A DNA stretch of 64,000 bases from Bacilli bacterium (GCA_017541885.1 JAFXYF010000015.1:1-64000); one strand, 5' to 3'. Numbered from the stretch's first letter, positions 16,065 to 39,334 are shown. Numbers and translations are program-made. Notes: generated by a model from the letters alone, not told the origin.

Positions 16065-16772
16065 ATGAATGATGTAGAAGTAAAAGCAGAGACAATTTAT
16101 AAAAGGGAACTGATAAAAAAGATAGTAAAAATATCTTTACTACTATTACTGATTATTATATCTATTATCTATTTAGTTCTATATGTTGCTTATCAAAGTG
16201 GACGATTTACAGTTTCACTGGATAAGAACTTGTCAAATCAAAAAAGTGTTTACCTTTCTGAAAGTGGAAAGATTTCAGATAAGACTAGACGTCTTTCTGC
16301 AGAAACTATCAATTATATGGACAACATCTCTAAAGATTGGATACCTGAGGATGTAGATACTGAATCGGATGGTTCTCATAATGGTGATAACTATATTGCC
16401 TATACCTTTTATGTAGTAAACGGTGGCAATGAAACGGTTCACTATTGGATGGAGATGGATGTAGATGATACGATTAGAAGAGTAGATGAAGCTATTCGTA
16501 TTATGATATATCGTAATGGGGAACCTGTTGTTTATGCAAAAAAGAGTGAGAAAACAGGAGATGCTGAGCCAGATACAAAAATGTTTGTTTCCGATAATAT
16601 TGCCCTATTGGAACAAAGAAAGAATTTTAAACCAAAAAGTAAGGATCGCTACACGGTAGTCGTTTGGATTGAAGGCGATGATCCAGAGTGCAAGAATGAT
16701 TTGCTTGGTGGGGAAATTAAGATGCATATTGATATAACAGAAGAGCATCTAAGTGGCAAAAAAGAAAAGTAA
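16065..16772 (+). CDS. Membrane-anchored TasA/camelysin-like protein
   Basis: This 235-residue protein has a long basic N-terminus, one hydrophobic segment (about 20-45) and an extracellular beta-rich domain. The segment DNYIAYTFYVVNGGNETVHYWMEMDVD resembles the TasA/camelysin fold made from SipW-type precursors. It begins the SipW/TasA-like locus, 13 bp ahead of the next gene, and both sit behind an elaborate promoter region. Its base use is less AT-rich than that of its neighbours (more GGC, ACG, GTC codons). It is probably a minor subunit or anchor for the abundant protein encoded next, but this is inference. Confidence 0.6.
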   Translation: MNDVEVKAETIYKRELIKKIVKISLLLLLIIISIIYLVLYVAYQSGRFTVSLDKNLSNQKSVYLSESGKISDKTRRLSAETINYMDNISKDWIPEDVDTESDGSHNGDNYIAYTFYVVNGGNETVHYWMEMDVDDTIRRVDEAIRIMIYRNGEPVVYAKKSEKTGDAEPDTKMFVSDNIALLEQRKNFKPKSKDRYTVVVWIEGDDPECKNDLLGGEIKMHIDITEEHLSGKKEK

Positions 16773-16785
16773 GGAGTATATTTTT

Positions 16786-17787
16786 ATGAGTAAGAATAGT
16801 AAAAAAGAAAGCCAAAGAAAGAAAAGAAGATTATTTTTAGCCATCATAATGATTTTATTTGTAGGTGTTGTCTTAACTACAAGTACTTATGCATGGTTCA
16901 CAGCTAACAGAACTGTTACTGTTGATGCAATCGATGTTACTGTTACTACATCTGAAGGTTTACAAATCTCTACAGATGCTACTAACTGGAAATCTGTTGT
17001 AACAAATGCTGACATTACTGGAGCAAGTTGGAGTGGTGTTAATAACCAATTACCACAAGGAACTAACTTATTATCACCAGTATCAACTGATGGTACAGTA
17101 GATTCAAATGGTTATATGGAAATGTTCAAAGGAACTATTGAATCTGATGCTACTACAGGTAACAACTTATTAACAGCTGTTAAGTCTACAGAGACTAATG
17201 GTACAGCTGGAGATTTCGTTGCATTCGATTTATTCTTCCAATCAACTCAAGAACAAGACATTTATTTAACAAGTAATTCAAGTGTTGTTGCAAAAGGAAC
17301 TTCAACAGGTATTGAAAATGCTGCTCGTGTTGCATTAATTAAAGAAGGTAGTGTAGCTTATGGTTCAGCTGCATCTGCTGCATATGCTTTAAAGGGTAGT
17401 CAATCTAAGTTCATTTGGGAACCAAATTATGATGTACATACTACTGCTGCAATTGCAAATGCATTAAATAACTATGGCGCAACAATTCCTGCAACTGGTG
17501 GATCTAAAGTTGCATATAAAGGTGTAACTGCTGCAATTCCAACTGGTGTTCCATTAAATAGTACAGCTAGTGCTTATTTCGCTGATGTTAACCCTGCTAC
17601 AACAGGAAGCTTAGCAAGCGGTATTCCAACAACTGCATATTTAAGTTTATTTAAAGTTGCTGCTGGTATTACTAAAGTAAGAATTTACATGTGGATTGAA
17701 GGACAAGATTACGATTGTGAAGACCGTGCTTCAGGAGGATCATTAACATATAGCTTACAATTCAGTATTGATGACAAAGCTGCATAG
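16786..17787 (+). CDS. Abundant TasA-like surface/filament protein (SipW-type signal peptide)
   Basis: This is a 333-residue protein. ATG 16786 is preceded by AAGGAG; the frame runs back to 16753 only inside the previous gene. After a very basic start (NSKKESQRKKRRLF) comes a hydrophobic segment and the sequence TTSTYAWFTANRTVTVDAID, the classic SipW-substrate junction of TasA/CalY-like proteins. The mature part is rich in A, T, S, G and N with few charges. Codon choice is shifted toward AAC, TTC, CCA and ACA relative to neighbours, which usually marks very high expression, so this is the best candidate for the major structural subunit of the locus. A strong terminator follows. Confidence 0.7.
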   Translation: MSKNSKKESQRKKRRLFLAIIMILFVGVVLTTSTYAWFTANRTVTVDAIDVTVTTSEGLQISTDATNWKSVVTNADITGASWSGVNNQLPQGTNLLSPVSTDGTVDSNGYMEMFKGTIESDATTGNNLLTAVKSTETNGTAGDFVAFDLFFQSTQEQDIYLTSNSSVVAKGTSTGIENAARVALIKEGSVAYGSAASAAYALKGSQSKFIWEPNYDVHTTAAIANALNNYGATIPATGGSKVAYKGVTAAIPTGVPLNSTASAYFADVNPATTGSLASGIPTTAYLSLFKVAAGITKVRIYMWIEGQDYDCEDRASGGSLTYSLQFSIDDKAA

Positions 17788-17803
17788 TAATTAAGCGTAT
17801 TTT

Positions 17804-17836
17804 AAAAGCCTTCTCTTTTATAAGGAAGGCTTTTTA
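17804..17836 (+). terminator. Strong terminator after the major TasA-like gene
   Basis: AAAAGCCTTC and GAAGGCTTTTT form a GC-containing stem with a T-run, the most stable terminator of the locus by eye. Confidence 0.85.
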
Positions 17837-17855
17837 TTCTATGAGGTGAGAGACA

Positions 17856-18098
17856 ATGATAGATTTAGAAGAAATAAAAGGATTAGATGATAAGACATTA
17901 GTAGCATTATATCAATTAGTTACTGACCATATTAAGTTTCTAGATAACTCTGTTCTTGAACTTTCTGTAGATGAAGATAGTGCTGAAGAAGAAGAGGAAG
18001 AAGAGAATACTGATGACTCTGAGGCTGAAGGCACTGACGAAGAATCTAACGATGAAGAATCTGAAGATGAAGAAGAGGATGGTGAAGAAGATGAATAA
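17856..18098 (+). CDS. Small highly acidic protein, unknown
   Basis: This is an 80-residue protein. Residues 1-42 are predicted helical (IDLEEIKGLDDKTLVALYQLV), and the remaining half is almost only Glu, Asp and Ser. GAGGTGAG precedes ATG 17856. The acidic tail is encoded by an A/G-rich stretch that also carries the ribosome binding site and start of the next gene, which overlaps by 8 bp, so the two products are likely made together. Such tails often act as chaperone-like or DNA-mimicking partners; no function can be assigned. Confidence 0.65.
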   Translation: MIDLEEIKGLDDKTLVALYQLVTDHIKFLDNSVLELSVDEDSAEEEEEEENTDDSEAEGTDEESNDEESEDEEEDGEEDE

Positions 18099-19713
18099 TT
18101 TGGAACAATTCTCTATAGTTGCAGAAATGAAGAATGATAAAGAGTTTATTGAAAACTTTGTTTTAGAGACTGATAAAGGTACTAAAAGAATGAAAGAAAA
18201 ATTCTATAATCATGCTGCAACTCAAAGAAATGAATGGATTGCTAATAAAAGAGGCGGATATGTTCAAATATCTAAAGGATTATTTGAGGAAATTTCTAGA
18301 AGATTCCCTGCTTTAATGCCAAATGATTGTTCAGAAACATATCAAAAAATGGCTGTTAGTGTTGATAAATTATTATATGTTGCTAGATTAGACTCTGATA
18401 GCTCTAATGCTTTTAAGCTTGATTTGTCATTTATTCTTGCATCTATTAATGATTTAACATCTTTAGAGGATTTAAATTTAAAAATAAGACAATTTATTAA
18501 GAAATTTGGAGAATGTGGAGTTCATTTAACATTAGAAGATTTTAAATATACTATGTTTACTGAAATGTATATGACTACATTCTTTGAAAATTCTGATTAT
18601 GATTCTGTAAAAGATACATTTGAGAAGATCTATTTTAAGTGTCCTGATATTAAATTACAATTAAAGATGAATCTACAATATTTAGTTAATAAATATGACA
18701 AACAATTGGGTACTTATGTTGGTCTATTAAAGGCTCAAATGTTTAATGATAATGGCATTCCAGAGGGTGGAGATGCTGTTGCTAGATATGTAAAAGCTCG
18801 TTATGAAATGGGAGATCAGATTGCAACTGATGAGTTTTATAATGCTAAATTATTCTTAGATGGTAATAAGAAAATTGATGATTATTTAGCTGGAGCTTCT
18901 ACTAGAACTAAAATATATAATTCATTTGCTTTAAATGAAGATTATAATTCTTATTCTGATGAAGAAAAGAAGTTATTTAATGATGCAATGATGGGATTTT
19001 ATTTAACACTTAATGAGTTAAAAAAATTCTATCGTTATGAGTTTATTTTAAAAGAATTAGTAACTTTCTATAAAGATAAAGCTAGTGCTAAAGGTGCTTA
19101 TCTTGCAAAGAAAAAAGAAGTTGAAAAAGAAGAAAAAGTTAGGGAAGGATTATATGGTCAATACCGTAAGGCTTTAGGTATTGGATTCTTAGCTAGAAAG
19201 AATGAAAATAAGCAAAAAATTGTTATGTTAAACATGAATGCTCATATTCGTAAATTAAAAGAATTATATGATCAATTATATGAGTTAGAAATTCATAATG
19301 AAGTTAGTGAATTAGAGGATTCTTCTAGTATTTATGATTTATTCTTAACATCTCTTAAATCTTTTGCATTCTTAGAGAAGTGTTTTTCTAATGAAGATTT
19401 TGCTGATAAGAGTTTAGAAGAAAATGTTAAAGAATATTTAAAATTTATTTATAATCCAGATAATGGTTTCTTAAGAAAAATTAATGGATTAGCTGATTAT
19501 AATATTACTGATGTTGTTGCTGAAAAATATAGATTATTAAACTTAAATATTACTAGTGAAATTGTATCTGCTGATACTATTGATGCAACCTTCTCAGATG
19601 TTCAATTTATTAACTTAATTCAGAACATTGAAAGAAGCAGAATTTCACTTGATACAATTGATAATTTATGTAAAATGCAAACTATTATGAAGACTAAATC
19701 TGAAGAACAATAA
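18091..19713 (+). CDS. Cytoplasmic helical protein of unknown function in the surface locus
   Basis: This is a 540-residue protein. I place the start at ATG 18091 (MNNLEQFSIVAEMKND), because upstream of it this frame only reads the acidic gene out of frame. There is no signal peptide or membrane segment; the sequence looks almost all helical, with a lysine-rich region at about residues 330-395. I recognise no domain. It overlaps the small acidic gene and lies between the major TasA-like gene and a SipW-type signal peptidase. A chaperone or assembly role is possible by context only. Confidence 0.65.
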   Translation: MNNLEQFSIVAEMKNDKEFIENFVLETDKGTKRMKEKFYNHAATQRNEWIANKRGGYVQISKGLFEEISRRFPALMPNDCSETYQKMAVSVDKLLYVARLDSDSSNAFKLDLSFILASINDLTSLEDLNLKIRQFIKKFGECGVHLTLEDFKYTMFTEMYMTTFFENSDYDSVKDTFEKIYFKCPDIKLQLKMNLQYLVNKYDKQLGTYVGLLKAQMFNDNGIPEGGDAVARYVKARYEMGDQIATDEFYNAKLFLDGNKKIDDYLAGASTRTKIYNSFALNEDYNSYSDEEKKLFNDAMMGFYLTLNELKKFYRYEFILKELVTFYKDKASAKGAYLAKKKEVEKEEKVREGLYGQYRKALGIGFLARKNENKQKIVMLNMNAHIRKLKELYDQLYELEIHNEVSELEDSSSIYDLFLTSLKSFAFLEKCFSNEDFADKSLEENVKEYLKFIYNPDNGFLRKINGLADYNITDVVAEKYRLLNLNITSEIVSADTIDATFSDVQFINLIQNIERSRISLDTIDNLCKMQTIMKTKSEEQ

Positions 19714-19734
19714 AAGTAGTTAAAAAAGTGTTAA

Positions 19735-19778
19735 AAAAACTATAAAAAGTGAGTAAAAAGGCTTTTATAGTTTTTTTG
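19735..19778 (+). terminator. Terminator before the signal peptidase operon
   Basis: AAACTATAAAA and TTTTATAGTTT pair across a 15-nt loop, followed by T. An extended -10 TGgTATAAT (19784-19792) starts the next unit. Confidence 0.75.
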
Positions 19779-19823
19779 TTTTATGGTATAATGTAATATG
19801 AGAATAGATTGGCGGTGACTGAG

Positions 19824-21044
19824 ATGAATAGAGTCAGAAAAATCTTAAAAACTATTGCAACTTCTCTATTGGTTGTCTTGGTTTTATTGTGTGTTTATAC
19901 ATTTGTTGTCACTGATATTATGAAGAAGGATTATGTTAATGTTTTTGGTTATACATACTTCGTAGTTGCTTCAGGATCTATGTCAGGTACAATTGAAGTT
20001 GATGATATCATTTTTGTTAAAATTACAAAGGATGTTAAGAAAGATGAAATCATAACTTTTATTGATGATGATAAGAATTTAATTACTCACAGATTGGTTA
20101 ATAAAAATGGAGATAAATACATTACTAAAGGTGATGTTAATAACGTAAGTGATGATCCAATTACAAAAGATCAAATAGTTGGAAAAGTACAATTGGTTGT
20201 ATCTCCTTCATTCATACTTAAATCAGTTGCGATATTCTTAATTGTATTTATTCTATTAGCTTTAGTAAATTTTGATCAGATAGTTAAAAAATATATTGTT
20301 AAAACTCCAACAAAAGGAAATGAAAAACTACCTGATAATATATTTGCTAGTCCAAATAAAAAATATGAAGAACCTTCTTCTGGACTTACTGTTACTATTA
20401 ACATTGGTGAGATGGAAAAAATCAATAAAGATAGTGAAGTAATAAAAAAAGAAGAAGAGAGTGAAATATTTAGATGTGATGATTACTTTGTATTTGAACC
20501 TTCAACATCTAAGAAAAAATATACATTTGAGAAAGAGACAGTTGATTTAGTAATATCTGTTCTTAAATGTAAAAGTAGTAATCTAGCTAGTGCTAGAATG
20601 AACAAGAAATGGTTAACAAGATATCAATATGTCTACAAATTATGTCATATGATTCTTTACAATGATACTCAAGGATTAATAAGTGAGATTGCTAATCCTC
20701 CGTTTAGAGAAATATATGATTATGATCTTGATAAGATGGGGTTAACTGAAGCAATTAGAAATCGTATTTACGATTTACCAATTCATTTATTCTTAAGACT
20801 TCTTACTTATTGTATTTTATACAATGATGATGAGATGTTTGATGGAATATACAAAATATTAAAATACAAAATGATGAATGATAAGAATGATACATTTAAA
20901 CAAATTTCTAGTACTGATCGTCATTCAATGCAAGAATTAAAATCATTAATTGCATTTATGAAAAATGTATCGAATAGATTTGATAAGAAACATGTCTTTG
21001 AATTAGACAAAATAGAAAAGATGGTTAAAATTCAAAATTATTAA
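19824..21044 (+). CDS. SipW-type signal peptidase I with a long cytoplasmic C-terminal extension
   Basis: This is a 406-residue protein. Residues 1-165 form an ER/archaeal-type signal peptidase: a membrane segment, catalytic Ser52 in VASGSMSGT, His89 in ITHRL (His replaces the usual bacterial Lys), box KGDVNNVSDDP, and a second membrane segment at about 140-160. SipW-type enzymes process TasA-like precursors. The remaining 240 residues are predicted cytoplasmic, with a charged linker and a helical domain (about 230-406) that I do not recognise; ordinary SipW is about 190 residues. The start is ATG 19824 behind GGCGGTGA. The giant surface protein follows 21 bp later, probably as a co-transcribed substrate. 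Confidence 0.9.
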   Translation: MNRVRKILKTIATSLLVVLVLLCVYTFVVTDIMKKDYVNVFGYTYFVVASGSMSGTIEVDDIIFVKITKDVKKDEIITFIDDDKNLITHRLVNKNGDKYITKGDVNNVSDDPITKDQIVGKVQLVVSPSFILKSVAIFLIVFILLALVNFDQIVKKYIVKTPTKGNEKLPDNIFASPNKKYEEPSSGLTVTINIGEMEKINKDSEVIKKEEESEIFRCDDYFVFEPSTSKKKYTFEKETVDLVISVLKCKSSNLASARMNKKWLTRYQYVYKLCHMILYNDTQGLISEIANPPFREIYDYDLDKMGLTEAIRNRIYDLPIHLFLRLLTYCILYNDDEMFDGIYKILKYKMMNDKNDTFKQISSTDRHSMQELKSLIAFMKNVSNRFDKKHVFELDKIEKMVKIQNY

Positions 21045-21065
21045 AAATGATAGGAAGTGAGAACA

Positions 21066-24000
21066 ATGAAGAAGAAAAATATTGAAGCAAGAAAAATCTT
21101 TTTCCTTCTTGTTCTTGCTTTCTTTTTGGTTTTCTTTTCACTTTCAATTTATACTGTTTTATCTGGTATCTTCTCATTTGCTGAATTAGAAGGTTGGGAT
21201 GGAAAGAAAGTTGCAGAGTCTTTCTCTAAAGGAAATGGTACTGAAGAAAATCCATATGTAATTCATGATGCTTCTGAATATATGTACTTCAAGAGTTTGA
21301 TTGAAGGAGATACATATGAAGCATATCAAGATAAATATTATATCTTAGATGCTAATATTGATTTCAATGGTCATGAAATAACTCCAATTGGAATAGTTAA
21401 TTACGAAAAACCTGAAGATGTAATTGTTCATGGAGAAGGTACTGAAGGAGAAGTTATTTCTGATGAACCTAAAGTAGAGGAGACTAAGGTTCTAGAATCT
21501 GGTGAAAGCTCTACTGAAGAATCTACTGAAGAAAAAGAAGAGACTCCTGTTAATGAAGAAGTTGCGACAGAAGAAGTAGAAGAAGCAAAAAATAATGACA
21601 GAATATTTAAGGGTGTACTTGATGGACAAGGATATTCTCTTATGAATTTCAAAATGGTAGAAGGTTCTAAAATAGAAGAGGCTTCTTATTTTGCTTTATT
21701 TAGTAAGGTTTCTGAAGCAGAGATTAAACAGTTAAATGTGGAAAATTATAAATATGAAATTCCTGAGCTTGATAAAGTAGTTGTTTCTTTGTTTACTGGT
21801 ATTTCTGAAAAGAGTAATCTTGATGTTATTATTCTTAGTGATTTTAATATCAAAGTTAAAAAAGCTGAATCAATTACAATTGGTTTAATTGCTGCAGAGT
21901 CTGATGAAGATACTAAGATTAACAGAGTTTATATTAATGGTGAAATTGATGATATTAATAATGGAGTAGTTCGTTATTATGACAAAGGTGAAGCTACAAA
22001 TATTATTTCTGATGTTAAATATGATGGAACTATTCTTAGTGAGAATGTAAAAGACTTATATCTTGTTAAAGATGGTGTTATTACATTAAAGGGTGAGGAA
22101 ATTGATTCAGATGACTTAATTGAAATATTAAGTAAAGAAATTGATTCTAAATATTTTTGGTCATTTGATAATGGAAGATTTAAATTTACTACTCATGATT
22201 TAGATGTAGTTGATGTTCCTGCTGAATCTCAAACATTTGCTTTCTCTATACAAGGAGCAGGAAATATTTCATTACATGCTACTGGAAAAGAAGGAACTAA
22301 TGTTTATATTAATGATTTAACTAGTGATTACAATTACTATATGGGTCGTAATTATACAGAGATTACTAATACTACTGGAACTATTCCTAATGGTACTGAT
22401 AGAGGACTTTATTCTAATAGTAATTTAGCAACTGTCTATATTCGATATAGTTCAGCTGATATTAATGATGCTAATGTTGCTGGTAGAATTAGTGCTTCTG
22501 AAGATTATAGAAACATGTATTATTATAAGAGGATTCCTGTAGTATCTGGTTATGTTGAATTTGACTTAATTTATAATCCTTGGGCATATCGTCCAAATAA
22601 TAGAGCATTTAATGGATGGACTACTGATGATACAAATGCAGTTATTACACTTGATATAGATACTTATGTAAGACATGTAAAAATACCAATCAGTGATGTT
22701 AGTACACCTTATTCAATTACATTCTATTCAAGTTGGACTACTGCAACTGTTGTTAATAGTACGAGTGATTTTTCTGATTTAAAATCAGCTGGAATGACTC
22801 CTTTAAGTCCTTCTGTTGCAGAAGATTTAACTAATTATTATTGTCCTGGACATGTTAATAGATATAATTATTATCCAACATCTAATACATTATATTCCCG
22901 TACAGGTACAAAGATAAATTCTGGAGCATACTGTAGTGCATATGGTGGATGCGATTACATTAATAGATGTAGTACTAATGAATATAGTTCTGGAACAACT
23001 TATTATAATGTAACTCCAATTCAAAATAGTAATAATGTTACAGTTTCAGTATTTACTCCTACAATTACAGGAGCAATTAGTTATTATCAAAATGGTGGAT
23101 CTGCTGCTGGATACTTTAAACAAGTAACTAGTGGAAGTACAAATGTATATTCTGCTACTGGTTCAAAGTTATCAAGTTGTAGTGGAACTTGTTATCAATT
23201 AATGCAAGCAGGAGATACTTTAGTAAATGGTACAACATATTACTATTTAACAACTCGTGATACTAATATTTTCTATCCATCTTCTACAAGTGCAATTAAT
23301 ACGAGTGGTATTACAGTAAATAAACCTATGACTATTACTGGTCTTCATAATGGAACTGATAATAGTGCAAATCGTACGTTAAATGTTAATAATACTTGGT
23401 CGATGGGTGCTGATTGTCGTATTGAATATTTGACGGTTTATACTCAATCATATGCATCTACTACTTCTTCATCATTTAGTGCAAATGGTAGTAAGATTGC
23501 TGGTAATTTCCATAATTTAAAAATTGGTAGAGGACTTAAAAACGAGACTGATTATTGGGGTGATGAGTATTTAACTGCTACTTCGTTTGTTGGTGGTATT
23601 AATGATGATACATCTAGTCTTGAAAAATATACTTTAATTGTTGAGTCTGGTAAATATCAAAATGGTTCTGGAGTAGGTTATTCATCTGCTGATTATCATT
23701 ATGTAAATGCTTATGTTACTTTAGGAAATGATTTTGATCGTATTTCTGGTAATAATGATGAACCTAGAGTTGAGTATTGTTATTCTGGTTCTTGGGCATC
23801 TACTTTATTTAATTCAACTAGTGAATCAAATTCTTATAATAAGCCTGCTATTTTAACAACAGTTAAGAGTGGTTATTATGGTGCTGGTGAAGCTGACTAT
23901 GCTGCTGGTATCTATGTAGGTGGTCGTGGAGCTGGTTCACACTATGCATTACGTGAAGCTGTTGTTGAAGGTGGAGTAATTTACAACTTAATTGGTGGAC

Positions 24001-30290: not shown

Positions 30291-30341
30291 TCTTTGAATT
30301 TATTGTATAATTGTGATAATATTAAGAAGGTGATATATAAT

Positions 30342-30938
30342 ATGAAAAAAGTTCTATCGTTTTTATGGTCTATTTTAGAATTTGTCATTATTGTTTATGT
30401 AATTGTAATGACTTCTATCTTACTAAGTAAAAACAAATATGGTTTTACTCAATTTGGTAATACAACTTTGTGTACTATTGATTTGGTTGATGAAAGAGGT
30501 ATTCAAGGTGTTAAGGCAGGAGATTTATTAATTGTAAAAAACAGTAATGATATAAAGGTTGGAGACGTTATATATTACTATGTTGTTTACAATGAATCTT
30601 ATGTTGTTCAAAATGCACCTGTTACTGATATTCAAGCAGATAAATATAGTGCAGTTTATACAATTGATGATGAGGAAGGTTCTCTAACTATATCTAGTGC
30701 TAGAGTTTTAGGTAAATATAATGTTATTTATCATAAGTTTGGTAAAATACTAGATGTATTAGAAAGTAGATTAGGATTCTTATTCTTAGTATTACTTCCA
30801 ATACTTGTAATCTTTATCTATCAAGTGTATGAATTAATCATGATTTTCCGTTATGAAAAAGTAGATGAAGAAGAACAAGATAAAAGAAATAATAAATTTA
30901 AGATAGTTGAAGAAGAAAAATCTGAAGAATCTGTATAA
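30342..30938 (+). CDS. Signal-peptidase-like membrane protein lacking catalytic residues
   Basis: This is a 198-residue protein with the overall plan of a SipW-type peptidase: N-terminal membrane segment (5-29), a beta domain with AGDLLIVKNSNDIKVGDVIYYYV, the late GKYNVIYHKFGKIL block and a second membrane segment (about 145-168). The catalytic serine motif (SGSM in the neighbours) is replaced by NTTLCTID, and the histidine motif (HRI/HRL) is absent, replaced by VVQNAPVTD. It is therefore probably an inactive pseudo-peptidase. ATG 30342 has AAGAAGGTGAT in front. It follows the giant protein by 51 bp, so it may bind or guide that protein or regulate the active enzymes; this is inference. Confidence 0.7.
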   Translation: MKKVLSFLWSILEFVIIVYVIVMTSILLSKNKYGFTQFGNTTLCTIDLVDERGIQGVKAGDLLIVKNSNDIKVGDVIYYYVVYNESYVVQNAPVTDIQADKYSAVYTIDDEEGSLTISSARVLGKYNVIYHKFGKILDVLESRLGFLFLVLLPILVIFIYQVYELIMIFRYEKVDEEEQDKRNNKFKIVEEEKSEESV

Positions 30939-30955
30939 AAAAATGTATAATTAGT

Positions 30956-30985
30956 AAAAAGGATTATTTTAATAATCCTTTTTTT
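30956..30985 (+). terminator. Terminator after the pseudo-peptidase gene
   Basis: AAGGATTATT/AATAATCCTT stem and seven T. The next extended -10 (TGtTATACT, 30987-30995) begins within 2 bp of the T-run. Confidence 0.8.
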
Positions 30986-31014
30986 ATGTTATACTGAATA
31001 TAGTAGGAGAGAGT

Positions 31015-31626
31015 ATGAAGAACATTTTTAGTAGAAAGACATTTTTAATACTAATGGCATTATGTGCTATAGCTTTTTTGTACTTTGGTGCTAAAGGTAC
31101 TTATACTGCCTATGAATCAATTGTACATGGTACTGCACATACTGATGTTTCACAAATTCATTTACTTATTAATGGTAATGAACTTGGGTCACAGGCCGTA
31201 ATAGATAATCAAATTATTCTTGATACTATTACATGGACTTCCACTCATACTAGAGAAGGGAAAATATCTCCAGGAAGTACGGGTTACTTTACTTTTGAAT
31301 TAGATCCTACTGGAAGTGAAGTAGCAATTCTTTATGATATCGAGTTTATTGATAAAGTAATGGATGATGATAAGATTATTACTTTTACTAATATTACTAG
31401 TGATCGTACTTTGGTTAGAACTGATGAAAGTACATATAGTGGAATTATTAGTTTAGCTGATATTGGTAATAATCAAAAGACTCATATTACTGTTTCATTT
31501 GAATTTGATGGTGATGAAGATATTATAGGAGATGCAATTCCTAATCAAGTGTATGAAGATTTATTTGAAGTGAACTTTCATGCAGTTCAATATCAAGGTG
31601 AAACTTTAACACCATATACAGGGTAG
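31015..31626 (+). CDS. TasA/camelysin-like membrane-anchored protein
   Basis: This 203-residue protein has AGGAGAG before ATG 31015. A hydrophobic segment (about 8-27) ends in KGTYTAYESIV, the position where SipW-type enzymes cut. The mature part contains DTITWTSTHTREGKISPGSTGYFTFELDPTGS-like beta strands; the ISPGSTGYF motif is typical of CalY/TasA-like proteins and recurs in the - strand gene ending at 38966. It starts a three-gene unit of similar proteins (overlap with the next of a few bases). It is a likely minor filament or anchor subunit. Confidence 0.68.
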   Translation: MKNIFSRKTFLILMALCAIAFLYFGAKGTYTAYESIVHGTAHTDVSQIHLLINGNELGSQAVIDNQIILDTITWTSTHTREGKISPGSTGYFTFELDPTGSEVAILYDIEFIDKVMDDDKIITFTNITSDRTLVRTDESTYSGIISLADIGNNQKTHITVSFEFDGDEDIIGDAIPNQVYEDLFEVNFHAVQYQGETLTPYTG

Positions 31627-31634
31627 TGATAAAA

Positions 31635-32246
31635 ATGAATGCATTACGTTCAAAAATTAGTCAGATTCCTTATTTTAAAGAGAAAGGTAGATTTCTCGTT
31701 TTTGTGTTGTTTATAGTTTTTGTTTTATTTGTAGCATATTACTTATTTAGAGTAGCTTATGCTAGATATGAACTTAGATCTAGTTTAGTATCTGATATTG
31801 ATAAAGCTTTATATATATTTGAGTCTGATGAAATACGTTTTAATCTGGATCCTACAGGTATTATTCCAAGTAATACACCATATACTTATCGTTTTAGTGT
31901 AGCTAACTTTAATGATGATCATGATAGTGATGTTGATATTAGTTATACAGTTACTGTTCGTACTACTACTAATTTACCAATAACTGTTAGTATGTATCGT
32001 AATGAATTACCTTCTTCTCCTGGAGCAGTTAATTTACTTACTGGAAGTACGGATGTTCAAGATGAAGATGGTGCTTGGTATCATGTATATTCACCTAGCT
32101 CTAGTTATTCAATGTATTATGCAAATGAAACAACTGATTATTATACTTTAGTGATTAATTTCCCAATAAATTATGCGAATGATTTAACTTATGTAAATTC
32201 TATTGAGAATATTGAAATTACTTTAGCATCTGAACAAATGGTATAG
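31635..32246 (+). CDS. TasA-like membrane-anchored protein
   Basis: This 203-residue protein has a basic N-terminus, a hydrophobic segment (about 18-42) and RVAYARYELRSS at the cleavage region, followed by an extracellular beta domain (NTPYTYRFSVANFNDDHDSD). I use ATG 31635; GTG 31626, overlapping the upstream stop, is an alternative coupled start. It is the second gene of a trio of like proteins. No enzyme motif is seen. Role as filament subunit or accessory inferred from context. Confidence 0.62.
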   Translation: MNALRSKISQIPYFKEKGRFLVFVLFIVFVLFVAYYLFRVAYARYELRSSLVSDIDKALYIFESDEIRFNLDPTGIIPSNTPYTYRFSVANFNDDHDSDVDISYTVTVRTTTNLPITVSMYRNELPSSPGAVNLLTGSTDVQDEDGAWYHVYSPSSSYSMYYANETTDYYTLVINFPINYANDLTYVNSIENIEITLASEQMV

Positions 32247-32256
32247 GGGGGTTATT

Positions 32257-33189
32257 ATGAATTTTATACGTAGACATAGAAAAACTAGTATTGCAGCAAT
32301 AATTTTCCTAAGCTTATTTGTTATAGTAGCAGTTGCTTTTGGTAAGTATATTCGTAATATTATTCAAAACTATATATTAGAGACACAAAACTTTTATTTC
32401 AATAGTTCAATTCTAAATATTAATGGAAAACATTATTCTATAACTAACTGGGATGGTGTTAACTCTTATCCATTAACAATAGATTTAAATAACCGTAAGT
32501 CTGATGATGTTTACACTAAAACTGATATTGTTTACACTATTTCAGTTAATTGTCCTTCTACAGTTACTTGTGCATTAAGTAAAAATGGGGATACAATTCA
32601 TCCTCTTGATCAAACTGATTCTTATACAATAACTGTTACTCCACATCAAAACTTTGGAGAGAACGATACTGTTACTGTATATACTGAAGTAACATCATCT
32701 TCTCCATATAGAAAGACTATGAGTGCAACTTATACAATAGGTGTTGAGAGAAGTGACTTTGGATATGAGATAGTTGATGGTGTAAATGAGAAGTACTTGA
32801 CAATCAACTTTACAAATGCAATTCCATTCTATGAAGTAGAAACTGCATTTGGAGATTATGCTGTAGGAGACTATGTAAGTTTAGATGATTATGCTTTACT
32901 TAGTCCAACTGATCAAGCAAATTGTTACTCAGCGATAGTTACGATTACTTATGATCCAACTGTGTTATTTGTTGATATGAGTAATAAATACTTTGTTCAT
33001 CGATTGTCGACAGGTTATGTAGAACAGACTATAAATGGTCATCAGTGGGTATCGGGATTCTCATTTAAAGTTAATGCAAGTTCGAGTAGTGCGATTAATT
33101 TTTACAAGGATGATATAACGCAAAATTATACATATCCGATAGTTAATTCGACACCTATAATAAATGTGTCTGTACAACTTGCAAATTAA
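32257..33189 (+). CDS. TasA-like membrane-anchored protein, larger form
   Basis: This 310-residue protein begins at ATG 32257 after GGGGGG. A hydrophobic segment (about 10-30) ends in VAFGKYIRNI, again a SipW-type junction (A-x-GKY). About 280 extracellular residues follow, beta-rich, with two cysteines in SVNCPSTVTCALS that could form a disulfide. It is the third of three consecutive similar genes. The extra C-terminal domain (about 170-310) is unrecognised; it may be a tip or anchoring subunit. Confidence 0.62.
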   Translation: MNFIRRHRKTSIAAIIFLSLFVIVAVAFGKYIRNIIQNYILETQNFYFNSSILNINGKHYSITNWDGVNSYPLTIDLNNRKSDDVYTKTDIVYTISVNCPSTVTCALSKNGDTIHPLDQTDSYTITVTPHQNFGENDTVTVYTEVTSSSPYRKTMSATYTIGVERSDFGYEIVDGVNEKYLTINFTNAIPFYEVETAFGDYAVGDYVSLDDYALLSPTDQANCYSAIVTITYDPTVLFVDMSNKYFVHRLSTGYVEQTINGHQWVSGFSFKVNASSSSAINFYKDDITQNYTYPIVNSTPIINVSVQLAN

Positions 33190-33209
33190 TGGATTTATTT
33201 CTATAAATA

Positions 33210-33218
33210 TGATATGAT
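33210..33218 (+). promoter_or_regulatory. Extended -10 promoter of the AAA+ operon
   Basis: TGaTATGAT stands 25 bp before GTG 33244, ahead of the five-gene unit 33244-38354. Confidence 0.5.
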
Positions 33219-33243
33219 ATTTAAGATAGGATAGGTGATTTTT

Positions 33244-34287
33244 GTGAATAACCTAATTACAGTTTTTATGAACTACAAATTAAATCGCCTTGTTGATTAT
33301 GGGGTTGTAGTCTATCAAAATGAATCTCCTTTTATAAGAGGAGTTTTTGGCAGTTATTTTCAAACTTATATCGACAACTATTATTATGGTATTTTCAATA
33401 CTATTGATAATGGATCCTATAATGAAGAAAATTTAAAATTAGAGTTTAATGGAATAATGGAAGAGATGCTTTATGATTATGAAGAATATAAAAATAAAGT
33501 TTCTCAAGAAGAATATTTAAATAATCAAAAAATAATTAGAGATTTAAAAGATATTGCATTATTAATAGTACCAATTGATACATTAGAATTTGATTCTGAA
33601 GATGATGTATCAGTTAAAATGGAGGATTTCTTTAATACTAGTAACTTAATGGTTGGAAATAGAAAAGATAAACTAATTAAGATGATTAAAGATACATATG
33701 TAATGCAGAAAAAACTATTAGATTATGAAAATCCTGATTTTACATTTGGAGAGAGAAGGTTTCATGAAGTAAGAGATTGTGTATGGATTGATTTAGTTCC
33801 TTCTATTCCATCTCTTGAAGGATATCGTAAAGGTTTAATTGATAAAGTTAATAGTGATAACTCTTTAGTACTTTCTAAATTAGAGTGTTTAGTTCAAATA
33901 ATATCTTTAATGTTACTTAAGAATTTCTTAGAGAAAAAAGAATCTAGAAAGATGTTTATTTCATTAGATGATTCATTAATTAGTAGATTGGGAATTGATG
34001 AAGATGTATTATCTTTAATTGATAATCCAATGTTTCAAAAAAATGTTTATTTAGCAGTTTCATACAATACGTATAGTAGATATAGAAATACATTTATTGA
34101 GGATTATAATTTTGCATTTACGCAAGACTTTAGTCATATCAATGATATATTTCAAAAGATTGATGCAATATACAACGAAGGATTTTCTCATTACTTGATT
34201 GTTACGGATTGTAGAGATGATGATAAAGATTATTTCATAAATTATAAAAATGAAGTTATGAGTGTATTAATGTTTGAGGAGGAATAG
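33244..34287 (+). CDS. Cytoplasmic protein of unknown function, first gene of the AAA+ operon
   Basis: This is a 347-residue protein. I choose GTG 33244, 5 bp after AGGTGAT, over GTG 33235, which lies within that site. There is no signal peptide or membrane segment; it is mixed helical with many charged residues. I recognise no domain. The C-terminal part (YLIVTDCRDDDKDYFINYKNEV) might be an alpha/beta core. Only one base separates it from the membrane-anchored McrB-like ATPase, so the two products are probably functional partners. Confidence 0.65.
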   Translation: MNNLITVFMNYKLNRLVDYGVVVYQNESPFIRGVFGSYFQTYIDNYYYGIFNTIDNGSYNEENLKLEFNGIMEEMLYDYEEYKNKVSQEEYLNNQKIIRDLKDIALLIVPIDTLEFDSEDDVSVKMEDFFNTSNLMVGNRKDKLIKMIKDTYVMQKKLLDYENPDFTFGERRFHEVRDCVWIDLVPSIPSLEGYRKGLIDKVNSDNSLVLSKLECLVQIISLMLLKNFLEKKESRKMFISLDDSLISRLGIDEDVLSLIDNPMFQKNVYLAVSYNTYSRYRNTFIEDYNFAFTQDFSHINDIFQKIDAIYNEGFSHYLIVTDCRDDDKDYFINYKNEVMSVLMFEEE

Positions 34288-34288
34288 T

Positions 34289-35845
34289 ATGGATACTTAT
34301 ATTAGATTTTTATTTGAATTTATGTCTGTGTTTTTTAAAGGTATCGCATCTATCTTCGGCGGAATCTTTAAAGGATTCATTCAAATGTTTAATATTCAAG
34401 AATACATGTATGTAATTGATTTCTATAAAAAAGATTTTAATGGAGGAGAGTGGGTACTTGTAATACTTGCAATTCTCGTAATGGTTATTATCTTAGGATT
34501 AATTGTTGCAGTATTTGTATTTATTATTAAAAAGATATTTAAATTTAGAAAAACTTTAGTAGATCAAGAATCTATGTTAAAAGAGATTGGAGAACTTAAT
34601 AAGAAAGTTGCTGATCTTGTTCAAGAAAAAGAAAAGATTCTTGCAATGAAGGTTTCTCAATTAGGTTTAAAACCTGGAGAGAGTCCTACAGTTGATACTG
34701 GTTCTAGTAGTGGTAGTGAAGGTGAAGAATCTACTGATGAAAATAACTTAGATGGAGATGCTGATAGTTACAGATTCAGTAAACTTCATTCTATTGACTT
34801 AGAGTATCGTGATTACAAAGTACAAGTTTATAACAATACATTTACTTTGGAAGAGTTGGTTGAAACATTTAGAAACTTCTGTGCTTCTAAATTAAGACTT
34901 TACTATACAACTAAAATGATTAGATTATTTATCTCAGGATTAAGTGCTACAAAACTTGTTATCTTACAAGGTATTTCTGGTACTGGTAAAACTTCCTTAG
35001 CATATGCTTGGGGTAAATTTATTAAGAACGACGCAATTATCGCATCAGTTCAACCGTCTTGGCGTGACCGTACCGAGTTATTTGGTTACTTCAACGAGTT
35101 CACTAAGAAGTTTAATGAAACTGATGTATTAAAAGGTTTATATATAGCAGGTTACACAGATGATGTATATGTAACTGTACTAGATGAGATGAACATCGCC
35201 CGTGTTGAGTACTACTTCGCTGAAATGTTATCTATTCTAGAAATGCCTTCTCGTGATGAGTGGATTATTGAGTTAGTTCCTAGTGCTTGGGATAACGACC
35301 CAATTCATTTACATGGTGGTAAGTTACAGATTCCTGGAAACATGTGGTATATCGGTACAATCAATAACGATGACTCTACATTCGCTGTTACTGATAAAGT
35401 GTACGACCGTGCTTTCCCAATTGATATCAATGATAAAGGTACTCCTTTTGAACCAATTGATACTGAAGCAATGAATATCAATAGTAGTTACCTTGAAGGA
35501 TTATTTGCTCAGGCAAAAGAGAAACATCCACTTACTAGTGAAATGGAACAAAAGATTGCCGATATGGACGATTATGTTATTAAACATTTCCGTATAGCTT
35601 TCGGTAACCGTATCGTTAAACAATTAAGAGATTTCGTTGCAACATATATTGAAGCTGGTGGTACAGAAGTTGATGCTGTTGACTACTACATTGCACGTAA
35701 GATCTTACGTAAATTTGAACAATTAAACTTAGCATATATTCGTGATGAAATCGATCCATTTATCGAGTTCTTAGACAAGAGCTTTGGTAAAGAAAACTTT
35801 ATGGAATGTAAAGAGTACTTATTAAGACTTAAGAAATTAATCTAG
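34289..35845 (+). CDS. Membrane-anchored McrB-like AAA+ ATPase
   Basis: This is a 518-residue protein; GAGGAGGA precedes ATG 34289. Residues 1-90 contain a hydrophobic region and a clear membrane segment (about 48-80), then a coiled coil (about 85-120) and an acidic Ser/Gly linker. The C-terminal 350 residues form an AAA+ domain of the McrB/MoxR branch: Walker A GISGTGKTSLA, Walker B with VLDEMNIARVEYYFAEML (the LDEMN-AR-EYYF signature of McrB GTPases), and sensor GTINNDDSTFAVTDKVYDRAF. McrB normally hydrolyses GTP to drive the McrC nuclease. Here the membrane anchor, the absent nuclease and the envelope neighbours point to another task. The AAA+ half uses CGT, GAC and TTC codons more than nearby genes. 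Confidence 0.85.
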   Translation: MDTYIRFLFEFMSVFFKGIASIFGGIFKGFIQMFNIQEYMYVIDFYKKDFNGGEWVLVILAILVMVIILGLIVAVFVFIIKKIFKFRKTLVDQESMLKEIGELNKKVADLVQEKEKILAMKVSQLGLKPGESPTVDTGSSSGSEGEESTDENNLDGDADSYRFSKLHSIDLEYRDYKVQVYNNTFTLEELVETFRNFCASKLRLYYTTKMIRLFISGLSATKLVILQGISGTGKTSLAYAWGKFIKNDAIIASVQPSWRDRTELFGYFNEFTKKFNETDVLKGLYIAGYTDDVYVTVLDEMNIARVEYYFAEMLSILEMPSRDEWIIELVPSAWDNDPIHLHGGKLQIPGNMWYIGTINNDDSTFAVTDKVYDRAFPIDINDKGTPFEPIDTEAMNINSSYLEGLFAQAKEKHPLTSEMEQKIADMDDYVIKHFRIAFGNRIVKQLRDFVATYIEAGGTEVDAVDYYIARKILRKFEQLNLAYIRDEIDPFIEFLDKSFGKENFMECKEYLLRLKKLI

Positions 35846-35878
35846 TAAGTAGTTAGTAATAAAAAGGAGGTGAGTAAG

Positions 35879-37033
35879 ATGATAGATGATCTTCTTGAAA
35901 ATGAAGAGGTTGAAGAAGAAGAGAACATTGAGGATAACGACCTGTTCCTTCGTAATTTGAACTCTACACTATATGTTAAAAAAGACTTCGATATGAAGGA
36001 ATTTGACTATGAGTGGCTTGATAAAATTGAAGATTGTATTCCTTATATTGATAATATTTTACGTAATCCAAAACGTTTCATTATCAATGAAGAGGAAATT
36101 GTTAAGGTTGAACTTGCTCGTAGAGTTACAGTTGAATCTGTTATCCATCTTACTCAGCACACTAACTTAATTCAAAAAATTGAAGATAATGGTGATGTTA
36201 AACCTTCTAAGATTTTGAATATTAACAAAGAGGAAAGTATGGATACTTATGAAAATAGATTTATCTTTACTCTAGTTAATAATACACGTATGTTTTTTGA
36301 ACAGAGACTTGAAGTTTCTGGTGGTAATAGTTATTGTTTTGATAAGAATAATTTAAAGTATGAAGCTAATACTAAAGTACATGGGGAAAACCTTAAAATA
36401 TCTATTGATGTTAGTGATGTAACTAAAGATATTATGGAACATTCTGGTGATAAAGGTGGAATGACTTTAGGAGAGAGAATTCGTAAAGCTAAACAGCAAA
36501 TTGATGGATTCTTTGGTACTGAAATGATTCAGACTTTAGCAAGACTTCATGTATCCCCAGTTCGTAGTCCGATTAAGAAAACAAACGTTATCTTAAAAAA
36601 CCCTAACTTTAGAAAAGCTGAAGAGTTATGGAACTATATTCAGTCTTTTGAAAGTAAGGATAAACGTAAAAAAGAAAATCGTGAATTCTTTGATAAAGGT
36701 ATATTAAAAGAAGAGTATGACCAAGCTTTCTTAATGGCTTTTATCGCAAATAAGAATTTTATTAGTACTAGTAGTTCTTCTACAGAGTTAGGTGTTATTC
36801 AACAAATGAGTCAGAGACTTATTGAAAACTTACTTGAGACAGACCCTGATCTTACAGAAGAAAAACTAGATGAAGTTTTTCATAAACAAATTGTTTATAT
36901 GAAAGATAAGAATGAAAAGAGAAGAAAAAGAATTTATTCTATTATTAAGAAGAGATTAGATAAAAATAATAAAGCATTAAATACTTTATTAAATACAATG
37001 AGAAAGAAGGCACCGAATGAAGAGAGTGTTTGA
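35879..37033 (+). CDS. DUF2357-like partner protein of the McrB-like ATPase
   Basis: This is a 384-residue protein; a near-consensus AAAGGAGGTGA precedes ATG 35879. After an acidic start the middle part (about 75-150) includes KEESMDTYENRFIFTLVN, which resembles the D-T-ENRF motif of DUF2357, a domain repeatedly found next to McrB-type AAA+ proteins and in McrC-like subunits. I see no PD-(D/E)XK nuclease motif. A basic helical tail (about 340-380) ends the protein, and the last 17 bp overlap the next signal peptidase gene. It is probably the AAA+ protein's adaptor. The family assignment is by recall of the motif and should be tested by profile search. Confidence 0.62.
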   Translation: MIDDLLENEEVEEEENIEDNDLFLRNLNSTLYVKKDFDMKEFDYEWLDKIEDCIPYIDNILRNPKRFIINEEEIVKVELARRVTVESVIHLTQHTNLIQKIEDNGDVKPSKILNINKEESMDTYENRFIFTLVNNTRMFFEQRLEVSGGNSYCFDKNNLKYEANTKVHGENLKISIDVSDVTKDIMEHSGDKGGMTLGERIRKAKQQIDGFFGTEMIQTLARLHVSPVRSPIKKTNVILKNPNFRKAEELWNYIQSFESKDKRKKENREFFDKGILKEEYDQAFLMAFIANKNFISTSSSSTELGVIQQMSQRLIENLLETDPDLTEEKLDEVFHKQIVYMKDKNEKRRKRIYSIIKKRLDKNNKALNTLLNTMRKKAPNEESV

Positions 37034-37598
37034 TAATAAGATATTTAAGACTGTTACTGGAGTAGTTAGAACATTTCTAATTATATTAATGGTATTCTAT
37101 GTAGGATTTGTTATTTTACAAAGATTATCTGGAAATAATAGTATTATGGGATATCGTTTCTTTACTGTCGCAACAGGATCAATGAAAGGTGTCTATGATG
37201 TTAATGATGTTATTGCAGTTCAAGACTGTGAAGTAAAAAATTTAAAAGTAGGCGATGATATTGCCTATATGGGTAGTCGTTCTGGATTAGAAGGAAAGAT
37301 TATTGTCCATAGAATTATAAGAATTGATGATGCAGCAGATGGAAGTCATATTTTAACTACAAAAGGTGTTAATTCTGCTGTAGAAGATCCAACAATTAAT
37401 GATAGTCAAGTACTAGGATGTGTACAAGGAAAAATTCCTGTAATTACACAAATTAATCATATAGTACGTAGTCAAGTTGGATTCTTTGCATTAATATTTA
37501 TTCCATTGGTACTTGTAATTGTTCTTGAAATATTACAAACAATTACAGATTATCAATTAGATAAAAATGAGATTCAAAGAATAGAGAATAATAAATAA
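37017..37598 (+). CDS. sipW: SipW-type signal peptidase I (second copy)
   Basis: This 193-residue protein has the normal SipW length. It has a membrane segment (about 14-36), catalytic Ser55 in VATGSMKG, His98 in IVHRII (Ser/His dyad), VGDDIAYM, and a second membrane segment (about 150-175). The box after the histidine reads TTKGVNSAVEDP, lacking the first Asp of KGDxN seen in the other copy, though a later Asp remains. It starts 17 bp inside the DUF2357-like gene and is followed after 12 bp by a TasA-like gene, its likely substrate. With two active copies in one locus, substrate division is plausible. Confidence 0.9.
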   Translation: MKRVFDNKIFKTVTGVVRTFLIILMVFYVGFVILQRLSGNNSIMGYRFFTVATGSMKGVYDVNDVIAVQDCEVKNLKVGDDIAYMGSRSGLEGKIIVHRIIRIDDAADGSHILTTKGVNSAVEDPTINDSQVLGCVQGKIPVITQINHIVRSQVGFFALIFIPLVLVIVLEILQTITDYQLDKNEIQRIENNK

Positions 37599-37610
37599 AA
37601 GGATGAGTTT

Positions 37611-38354
37611 ATGGATGAATTAGAGCTACAAGCTAGAAAGGAAAAACTTGATTCTCTTCAAAAGAAATTTAAGAGAAAAAAGTATATGGCACTGTTATTA
37701 GCACTTTTCACATTGGGTGTTAATGCTTTTGCGTGGTTTGTATTCTCATTTCATGCTGACTATACTTATGAAGGAAAAGTTTCTTCTTGGGATGTAGAAG
37801 TTAAAGAAGATGATCATCTAGTTAATAACTTTATTATTTCTGTTAATATGCAACCGGGTATGACGGATTTTGAAAAAGAGTATGAAATTAATAATCAAGG
37901 TGAAGTTGATGCTAGTGTTGATTATGAAATAACTTCTTTATCAATATTAGGAAGATCAATTAATCTACAGAATGTAGGTAACCCTGTTACTTATTTAGAA
38001 ACTTTTTATCCTTTTTCAATCTCTGTACAAAAGGATAAAGCTACTGTAGCTCCAAATGATACAGGACACTTTACTATTACTGTTAGTTGGGATTTTGAAG
38101 ATGCAACTGCATATTATAGATTGAATGAGATTTATGATTATAATAGTACATTTAAGTATTATAAATTATCTGGCTCTGATTATAATGAGTATACTGTAAC
38201 ATCTTCTAATTATTTATCAAATCGTAATACATTATATTTATTTAAAGATGATGCTGATACATACTTTGGTATGGCTTGTGGCAATTATCAAAGAGATACT
38301 GGTCTTAATTGCTTAGAAGCAACCATTGCATTATCAGTAGAACAAGCGGCATAA
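37611..38354 (+). CDS. TasA-like protein downstream of SipW
   Basis: This is a 247-residue protein starting at ATG 37611. A charged helical N-terminus (1-25) leads to the membrane segment MALLLALFTLGVNAFAWFVF and the junction FSFHADYTYEGKVSSWDVEV, close in style to TasA/CalY precursors. The mature domain is beta-rich with AEYEINNQGEVDASVDYEI-like strands. It is the last gene of the five-gene AAA+ unit, directly behind sipW, as tasA is placed relative to sipW in Bacillus. It ends at a bidirectional terminator. Confidence 0.7.
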   Translation: MDELELQARKEKLDSLQKKFKRKKYMALLLALFTLGVNAFAWFVFSFHADYTYEGKVSSWDVEVKEDDHLVNNFIISVNMQPGMTDFEKEYEINNQGEVDASVDYEITSLSILGRSINLQNVGNPVTYLETFYPFSISVQKDKATVAPNDTGHFTITVSWDFEDATAYYRLNEIYDYNSTFKYYKLSGSDYNEYTVTSSNYLSNRNTLYLFKDDADTYFGMACGNYQRDTGLNCLEATIALSVEQAA

Positions 38355-38384
38355 AAAAAAGATAGCTAATTGCTATCTTTTTTG
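38355..38384. terminator. Bidirectional terminator between convergent TasA-like genes
   Basis: AAAGATAGC-taatt-GCTATCTTT with flanking A- and T-runs. The stop codon of the - strand gene lies in the stem. Confidence 0.82.
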
Positions 38385-38966
38385 TTCGAAATGAATTGTT
38401 ACATTTATTTTTGTATCTTCATATGCTGATGTTTGAGCATATGTTGTATCTTCTGAATTATTCATTTCTTCAGTTGTTGGATCATCTACCCAAGCAAAGA
38501 AGACTCTTATGTTTGTTGCTGGTTTATTCTTTTGGATTTCTCCAACAATTCCAGTAGTTGGATTGTATGTTGAATATCCACCAGTACCTGCTATATAGTT
38601 TGTTATTTTTAAATCTTCAAGAGGAGTATTTGCATCAACTTCTCCTGTTATTGTATAAGTAAAATCAACATCTGCATATAATGCATTTATTTGGATATCG
38701 AAGTATCCTGTAGATCCTGGAGCAATTGTATCAGTTGCAACATAAGGATTTGCATCAAAAACAGGTGTTATTGCATTTGTTAGTGTTGTTTCGTTGTCGA
38801 TGGATTCATTATTTACGGTAATGTTCCAACTAGCAATTCTTCCTTGAATCTCTGAATCTACGTTTCTTCGGTACTTAGCATACGATGATTGAAATAAGTA
38901 GAGTAGGGAGATTGCTACGACGACTATAAACACGATTAGAAATAGTGCATCACTTTTCTTTTTCAT
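38373..38966 (-). CDS. TasA/camelysin-like membrane-anchored protein, opposite strand
   Basis: This 197-residue protein has a short basic start (MKKKSD), a hydrophobic segment (about 7-27) ending QSSYAKYRR, and SWNITVNNESID followed by IAPGSTGYFDIQINALYADVDFTYTI. The PGSTGYF motif matches the protein encoded at 31015. AGGTGAGAG lies before the start. Its transcription is opposite to the rest of the locus, so it is probably regulated separately. Confidence 0.7.
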   Translation of the reverse strand: MKKKSDALFLIVFIVVVAISLLYLFQSSYAKYRRNVDSEIQGRIASWNITVNNESIDNETTLTNAITPVFDANPYVATDTIAPGSTGYFDIQINALYADVDFTYTITGEVDANTPLEDLKITNYIAGTGGYSTYNPTTGIVGEIQKNKPATNIRVFFAWVDDPTTEEMNNSEDTTYAQTSAYEDTKINVTIHFEQKR

Positions 38967-39046
38967 AGTCTCTCACCTATTATTATTTTACCACAAAGGA
39001 TTTTTTTTTAGTAGTTTTTTTGATAATATATTTATAGGTGAAATGT

Positions 39047-39334
39047 ATGGAATTAGAGAATCAATTTAGATATTTAGTAGGTGGATACTATGGTGTTTCT
39101 CTTATGGATGACTATCCTTTAAAGGAGTTTGTATTAAAGGATATAGACAATTATATAAGAGATTTTATAGAGATAAATCCTATTGAAAACTTTGATTATA
39201 AAAGGGAAGCGGAGATTATTAAGGATAATGTCAGTGAGAGAGTAAAATTACAAGATGCTTTGCTTGTACTTCAAAAAATGAATGGTCCGATGGATTTAGT
39301 ATTAATGATTAAGAGTAGGTTAAAAAAGAAATAA
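39047..39334 (+). CDS. Small cytoplasmic protein, unknown
   Basis: This is a 95-residue protein. ATG 39047 follows AGGTGA; the frame extends to GTG 39038 within that site. It has no membrane segment and is charged and mostly helical (about 50-95: EIIKDNVSERVKLQDALLVL). No family is recognised. It lies at the edge of the surface locus on a unit of its own. Confidence 0.55.
   Translation: MELENQFRYLVGGYYGVSLMDDYPLKEFVLKDIDNYIRDFIEINPIENFDYKREAEIIKDNVSERVKLQDALLVLQKMNGPMDLVLMIKSRLKKK

Follow-up and report, generated by a model that had tools for sequence, protein, structure and literature searches.

A CoCoPALM-type gene block of Bacilli with SipW-type peptidases, an AAA+/DUF2357 pair and an EAL-fold protein, and its possible role in assembling a TasA/thread-like surface filament

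In 2024, Bell et al. gave the name CoCoPALM, in a single paragraph and with further study deferred, to members of the NxD clade of McrB proteins that carry an FtsB-like transmembrane (TM) and coiled-coil part, have linked signal peptidases and, according to the main text of that paper, are thought to serve pilus assembly (PMC11090510). Full-text searches of the open literature returned no other paper on CoCoPALM, and none in which SipW occurs together with DUF2357. Here we describe a block of about 16 genes at positions 16065-38966 of a 64,000-nt stretch from a Bacilli bacterium (GCA_017541885.1 JAFXYF010000015.1:1-64000; the window). The block shares with CoCoPALM, as its main text presents it, an NxD McrB-like nucleoside triphosphatase (NTPase), a DUF2357 partner, linked signal peptidases and probably the N-terminal TM and coiled-coil part, so that the association, put forward as a candidate new system in the original prediction made from this DNA, had in its core already been named (PMC11090510). 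We see an even chance that what the block encodes is a CoCoPALM-type system dedicated to making a TasA/thread-like surface filament, with subunits that would be processed by SipW-type peptidases, an AAA+/DUF2357 pair that would drive or control assembly, and an EAL-like protein acting as a relay. The broader proposal, of a class-wide machine in which a membrane-anchored, restriction-derived McrB/McrC-type hexamer under EAL (cyclic di-GMP, or c-di-GMP, type) control links cleavage by SipW with the donor-strand assembly of TasA-like subunits in an ordered way, is in our opinion possible but doubtful. We know of no TasA-type filament with an NTP-driven, signal-controlled assembly route.

The composition of the block could be read directly from the DNA, as every frame named in the original prediction is present as an open frame at its coordinates. 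From 16065 to 38354 all genes run in one direction, with intergenic gaps of 95 bases or less, and a convergent gene closes the block. The earlier gene list was incomplete in one respect, as the small acidic gene at 17856-18098 had been overlooked. The features are as follows, with the short names used below in quotation marks and a hyphen marking the junction in precursor motifs.

16065..16772, plus strand: secreted or anchored protein, candidate base or minor subunit; C-terminal WIEGxDxxC motif common to the 16753 protein
16786..17787, plus strand: candidate major filament subunit ("16753" frame), YA-WFTANR junction
17856..18098, plus strand: small acidic protein; tblastn homologues, at the equivalent position in G026, G003 and G031
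18091..19713, plus strand: cytoplasmic protein, function unassigned by family search; kept in the genus and a few f1 relatives
19809..21044, plus strand: first SipW-type signal peptidase, its C-terminal domain cytoplasmic ("19809")
21057..30290, plus strand: giant secreted solenoid-like repeat protein, candidate adhesin or tip
30294..30938, plus strand: conserved, catalytically dead SipW relative ("30294")
31015..31626, plus strand: small secreted protein ("31015"), paralogue of 38373 (hhalign 99.9%, E 1.5e-37)
31626..32246, plus strand: small secreted protein with a YAR junction ("31626"; hhalign to 31015 97%)
32257..33189, plus strand: secreted or anchored protein ("32257")
33235..34287, plus strand: degenerate EAL-fold cytoplasmic protein ("33235")
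34274..35845, plus strand: membrane-anchored McrB-like AAA+ protein with NxD motif ("34274")
35870..37033, plus strand: nuclease-free DUF2357 protein of the McrC N-terminal type ("35870")
37017..37598, plus strand: second SipW-type signal peptidase ("37017")
37611..38354, plus strand: TasA/CalY-related small secreted protein, FA-WF junction ("37611")
38373..38966, minus strand: convergent small secreted protein, YA-KY junction ("38373"), paralogue of 31015

The block is a single conserved system, which many families of the class carry with an altered gene order. The AAA+ gene is present in 29/59 searched relatives, nearly all of the same genus, and about 20 genus genomes with differing flanks preserve the gene order between 16065 and 38373, some of these regions being interrupted by contig ends. 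The order is also kept in 80 named loci from metagenome-assembled genomes (MAGs), many from rumen or gut, with titles that include Bacilli, Erysipelotrichaceae, Bacillales and some Clostridia. In these loci the AAA+ gene has 32257 at position -2 (71/80) and 33235 at -1 (73/80), followed downstream by the DUF2357 gene at +1 (80/80), a SipW gene at +2 (75/80) and 37611 at +3 (72/80), and 60 of the 80 also hold a 38373 homologue, on the minus strand in those listed. Because the order is constant both in the genus, despite differing flanks, and in the 80 named loci, the neighbourhood stands above chance. Class-wide, the AAA+ was found in 140/395 genomes and a 16753-type subunit in 83/395, and the overlap of the two lists places the AAA+ in 79 of the 83 subunit-carrying genomes against 61/312 others (Fisher p ~7e-39, with kinship of the genomes uncorrected). 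The usual order in other families is a 16065-like gene, one to five 16753-like genes, SipW, AAA+, DUF2357, SipW, small YAW/FAW proteins and a giant protein; the 16065 orthologue lies immediately upstream of the 16753-like genes in almost all families, giants of 1000-2400 aa occur in the loci of many relatives, and in the G364, G152 and G154 regions no DUF2357 gene was found directly 3' of the AAA+. Co-occurrence in related genomes was a point on which the original prediction could have failed, and it was found at both levels; the enlarged ATPase, SipW and TasA-like system that it proposed stands as one conserved system and reaches further than it supposed, and its next step, that the ATPase powers assembly, stays conditional.

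Several variants of the locus were also seen. Nine unrelated frames are inserted between the homologues of the dead SipW and 31015 in G033 (L046/L047), where the rest of the block is intact, and in five genomes (G207, G364, G152, G098, G089) a single contig has a second AAA+ copy some 15 kb from the first, resembling a tandem duplication of the whole locus. In the large genome G088 (L120 7556-13500), a single DUF2357 gene has an AAA+ relative on either side, and a 1676-aa secreted protein comes next; no SipW match was found near this different, tandem form.

The 34274 protein has an N-terminal TM segment, supported by alignment and hydropathy, a Walker A motif (GISGTGKT), a Walker B motif (LDEMN), an NND sensor and a DR pair; none of these varies across 11 divergent homologues, the NxD residues N364-N-D366 included, and McrB was its sole relative in the PDB. 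Its neighbour 35870 matches Pfam DUF2357 above the cut-off (E 1.4e-9), which bears out the membrane-anchored AAA+ with an adaptor-like partner first proposed. Given the homology to McrB and a match of the AAA+ to PDC-M26A, a candidate-defence model of PADLOC (E 3.5e-36), the pair might be an anti-phage system of the McrBC type whose place next to surface genes is incidental. However, no PD-(D/E)xK nuclease was found on the McrC homologue, and no catalytic residues are kept across 34 DUF2357 homologues, which share two conserved blocks followed by a variable C-terminal tail; the expectation that the ATPase partner would not be nuclease-linked is thus upheld. No DNA-binding domain was found in the AAA+, which has the TM segment in its place, and the neighbourhood with SipW and secreted genes is fixed in many families. 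A restriction or defence reading is therefore disfavoured in spite of the PADLOC match, and we hold it to be very improbable. Because the NND sensor is the NxD of the CoCoPALM clade, as described in the main text of PMC11090510, and stands together with DUF2357 and signal peptidases, the core is of a known kind and, by the features tested, not a restriction system.

The 19809 and 37017 proteins reach 60.3 and 69.2 bits, respectively, against the NCBIfam model sigpep_I_arch (TIGR02228; cut-off 51.85), and score below the cut-off of the SipW equivalog model (190 bits). The Ser and His of the active site are intact throughout the 19809 family (37/37) and in nearly all of the 37017 family (81/82), and both proteins are SipW-type (archaeal-type) signal peptidases, in agreement with the two Ser/His enzymes of the original prediction. 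The 30294 protein matches the SipW model weakly (E 1.4e-4), and the Ser motif is found in 0/68 members of its family, so that the catalytically dead relative also recognised earlier is a conserved copy and a sequencing error is excluded. By profile comparison, the C-terminal domain of 19809 matched neither 33235 nor the SipW-fused 33235-like domains described below.

A small operon elsewhere in the host genome (L001 1480-2629; G000:C14) consists of a CalY/TasA-type gene (Pfam M73 above cut-off, E 2.3e-6) and, after it, the gene for a short peptidase of the SipW type. Either the host genome also has the ordinary SipW-TasA/CalY kind, or this contig is a contaminant; contamination of the host genome is estimated at 7%, and most of the genomes compared are MAGs.

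Clear [YF]A[WKR] junctions are found in 16753, 37611, 31626 and 38373, and looser ones in 31015 and 32257, with none in 16065; the count of seven TasA/CalY-type starts given earlier was thus generous, four being clear and two looser. A strict automatic rule for TasA starts retrieved 3/15 frames inside the region and 0/36 outside. The best candidate for the major subunit is the 16753 protein, the product of the 16786 gene, as first predicted, and genes of its type occur in one to five tandem copies in relatives. An AlphaFold2 model of the mature protein, from 42 sequences (pLDDT 86.7, pTM 0.88), gave in VIA an archaeal thread subunit as best match (Z 5.3) and TasA (5of1) at Z 4.4, both low scores, in a list that also has FimA and FimH amid unrelated jelly-roll proteins. 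Foldseek ranked the same thread subunit, Saci_0406 (7pnb), first, at E 0.07, and the bundling pilus 7ueg twelfth, at E 0.53. Scores this low leave the fold unproven when taken alone; taken together with the SipW peptidases, the YA-W-type junctions and the tandem copies, they favour a donor-strand-type subunit, and the claim that the small proteins are TasA-like by predicted structure is, owing to the weakness of the match, only partly answered. The 16065 protein aligned with the 16753 family (hhalign 85%, E 6e-6 over 35 columns).

The remaining small proteins 31015, 31626, 37611 and 38373 are joined by profile comparison. The nearest of the set to TasA/CalY by sequence, and in part only, is 37611, which matched a CalY profile built without members of such loci (85%, E 6e-6 over 82 columns); a match of 97.9% was set aside, as that CalY set included members of such loci. 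One of 26 members of the 37611 family matches M73, and the G173 gene directly downstream of the AAA+ is above the Pfam Peptidase_M73 cut-off. TasA/CalY membership by Pfam PF12389 was rejected for the proteins of the window, all of which fall below the family cut-off, and profile searches of PDB sequences with the subunits and the DUF2357 protein gave nothing useful. The giant protein is 3074 residues long from the ATG at 21066, with repeats mostly of 24-26 residues at about residues 1687-2037, flanked by less regular repeats, in line with the solenoid protein of that length originally described; no Pfam family matched it. Such a giant, with so many different small secreted proteins and only a weak fold match for 16753, would also suit a non-polymeric surface coat or adhesin complex whose secretion and release are controlled. 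Up to five tandem 16753-type copies and SipW processing, however, fit a polymer, and a filament subunit was the top match of 16753 in both fold programs; we consider a coat quite unlikely.

The cytoplasmic protein 33235 had been listed as one of three cytoplasmic unknowns, and its fold points to a signalling link that the original prediction missed. In an AlphaFold2 model from 26 sequences (pLDDT 91.9), residues 166-350 match EAL domains: the best 50 VIA rows are all EAL-containing, with FimX-EAL at the top (Z 12.5), and Foldseek gave prob 1.00 against EAL domains. Pfam EAL did not match 33235 or the homologues scanned, and the EAL, DDFG and LEITE motifs looked for were not found; an EAL fold with no sequence-level match indicates a degenerate EAL and not an active EAL enzyme. 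As the 33235 profile did not match intact EAL proteins or the GGDEF-EAL proteins of other families, its link to EAL is one of fold and position. A 33235-like domain is fused to a SipW peptidase in G371, G012 and G020 (hhalign 99.8%, E 3e-30); in G006 the fusion partner is the dead SipW relative (hhalign 98%, E 2e-13). Other families have recognisable EAL proteins in the AAA+ locus, several of them of the GGDEF-EAL kind with an N-terminal TM segment and without the GGDEF motif. In 11 genomes of other families, picked by AAA+ neighbourhood and not by EAL genes, an EAL gene lies within about 10.3 kb of the AAA+ in all 11, with 1.0 expected by chance, and the associated p (~10^-12.6) is a guide only, since the distance limit was chosen after looking.

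The host genome has no recognisable EAL protein and a single GGDEF protein (L211 1435-3480; G000:C3:62000-65500), of 681 aa, with a solute-binding-like domain just under the Pfam cut-off and a GGDEF domain with the motif DGNEF; on this Pfam architecture its identification as GdpP was ruled out. A GGDEF frame of 680-687 aa recurs in the genus genomes checked.

How such a system might work can be proposed as follows, the filament, the action of the ATPase and the binding of a ligand being what we infer. Pre-subunits would be exported by Sec and held in the membrane by their single N-terminal helix until SipW cleaves the YA-W/K-type junctions, and the freed N-terminal strand could then enter the next subunit by donor-strand exchange. 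Below the membrane, a hexamer of AAA+ and DUF2357 would use NTP hydrolysis to pull or remodel the complex of peptidase and pre-subunit, so that release and polymerisation might be ordered at a single site. The 16065 protein and minor subunits may form the base or cap, and the giant protein a tip or an adhesin that links cells. The EAL-like protein, which sometimes forms part of a SipW fusion, could couple regulation to peptidase and ATPase, for which the action of FimX on PilB offers an analogy; c-di-GMP may be the signal in relatives with real EAL proteins, and the host lineage possibly uses a protein-protein signal only. In favour of a filament assembled in this way are the conserved order, the co-occurrence in 79/83 genomes, the kept peptidase dyads, the lack of a nuclease and the intact NTPase motifs, together with the weak donor-strand-like subunit fold, the EAL fold and SipW fusion of 33235, the EAL genes near the AAA+ (11/11), the pilus prediction for this McrB clade in the main text of PMC11090510, and the FimX-PilB precedent (PMC8389850).

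Several observations weigh against a driven filament. No filament has been seen, the organisms being known as MAGs; the best Z for 16753 is 5.3; 33235 has no sequence-level EAL match, and its ligand binding is putative; and G371, G365 and G328 have the AAA+ but no GGDEF protein. AAA+ proteins commonly unfold or extract substrates, and the pair could instead be a quality-control or retrieval machine that clears the membrane of pre-subunits left stuck or uncleaved, or of the peptidase, while filaments self-assemble as TasA does. The conserved dead SipW could hold precursors for such a machine. TasA, the Saci_0406 threads and BsaA polymerise without such an ATPase in their described operons (PMC9674648, PMC9715654, PMC7395162), so that filament assembly may not need one, and it is mainly on the filaments of TasA and BsaA that quality control is retained as an explanation (PMC9674648, PMC7395162). 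Nevertheless, simple SipW-TasA/CalY operons, one of them in the host genome, also lack an adjoining ATPase, so quality control is not generally needed either, and we regard this explanation as unlikely.

Some further features of the region deserve mention. The frame of the 18091 gene opens at 17971 (the "580 aa" frame), its probable true start being 18091, and the family-model search gave no match for its product. The small acidic protein ends in a long acidic run, and its gene overlaps the next one out of frame. At 39038-40243 stand two more genes, one of 98 aa and then a lipoprotein-like frame of 274 aa; in many genus genomes they come after the block, others have lost them from it, and they are probably neighbours rather than block members. 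The search for RNA families in the window found one tRNA only, with no c-di-GMP riboswitch or other RNA family, and no terminator-like site was found between the major subunit gene and the following genes.

Among described systems, SipW-TasA/TapA of Bacillus, BsaA of Clostridium perfringens and CalY of B. cereus share with the block a peptidase of the SipW type and small precursors in which aromatic residues follow the cleavage site. Their cargo polymerises, which is presumed here, and they are short operons without an ATPase, an EAL protein or a giant protein, while the proteins of the window fall below the M73 cut-off. McrBC type IV restriction has a homologous AAA+ domain and DUF2357, and the block differs from it in that no nuclease or DNA-binding domain was found, in having NxD instead of NxxD, and in its membrane anchor. 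In the FimX-PilZ-PilB system an EAL protein acts on the filament ATPase of type IV pili, and here too an EAL-fold protein lies beside a candidate filament ATPase (PMC8389850); the ATPase is however of another family, no PilZ was found in the block, and the filament type is different, so that the likeness is no more than an analogy. Archaeal threads (Saci_0406, 7pnb) and bundling pili (7ueg) have in common with it a processing of the signal-peptidase-I type and the fold matches of 16753, whose scores are low (E 0.07 and 0.53), and the threads have no described AAA+ partner (PMC9715654).

If our proposal is correct, a restriction-type NTPase has been turned into an engine or controller of surface filaments in Bacilli that are widespread in gut and rumen, and control of the c-di-GMP type would extend to SipW/TasA-like systems. 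Related loci occur in complete single-contig genomes of other families, which makes the proposal testable in organisms that are perhaps in culture. The closest counterpart is CoCoPALM itself, whose main text names no SipW type, no TasA-like cargo and no EAL partner, whereas the locus described here comprises 16 genes, among them those for a dead peptidase, a giant protein and a protein with an EAL fold (PMC11090510). The SipW type, the TasA/thread-like cargo, with its weak fold match, and the tie to EAL proteins seem to go beyond that main text, and some of them may stand in its supplement. With them, CoCoPALM would gain a concrete cargo, a precise type of peptidase, that is SipW with a conserved dead copy, and an unexpected EAL-fold partner.

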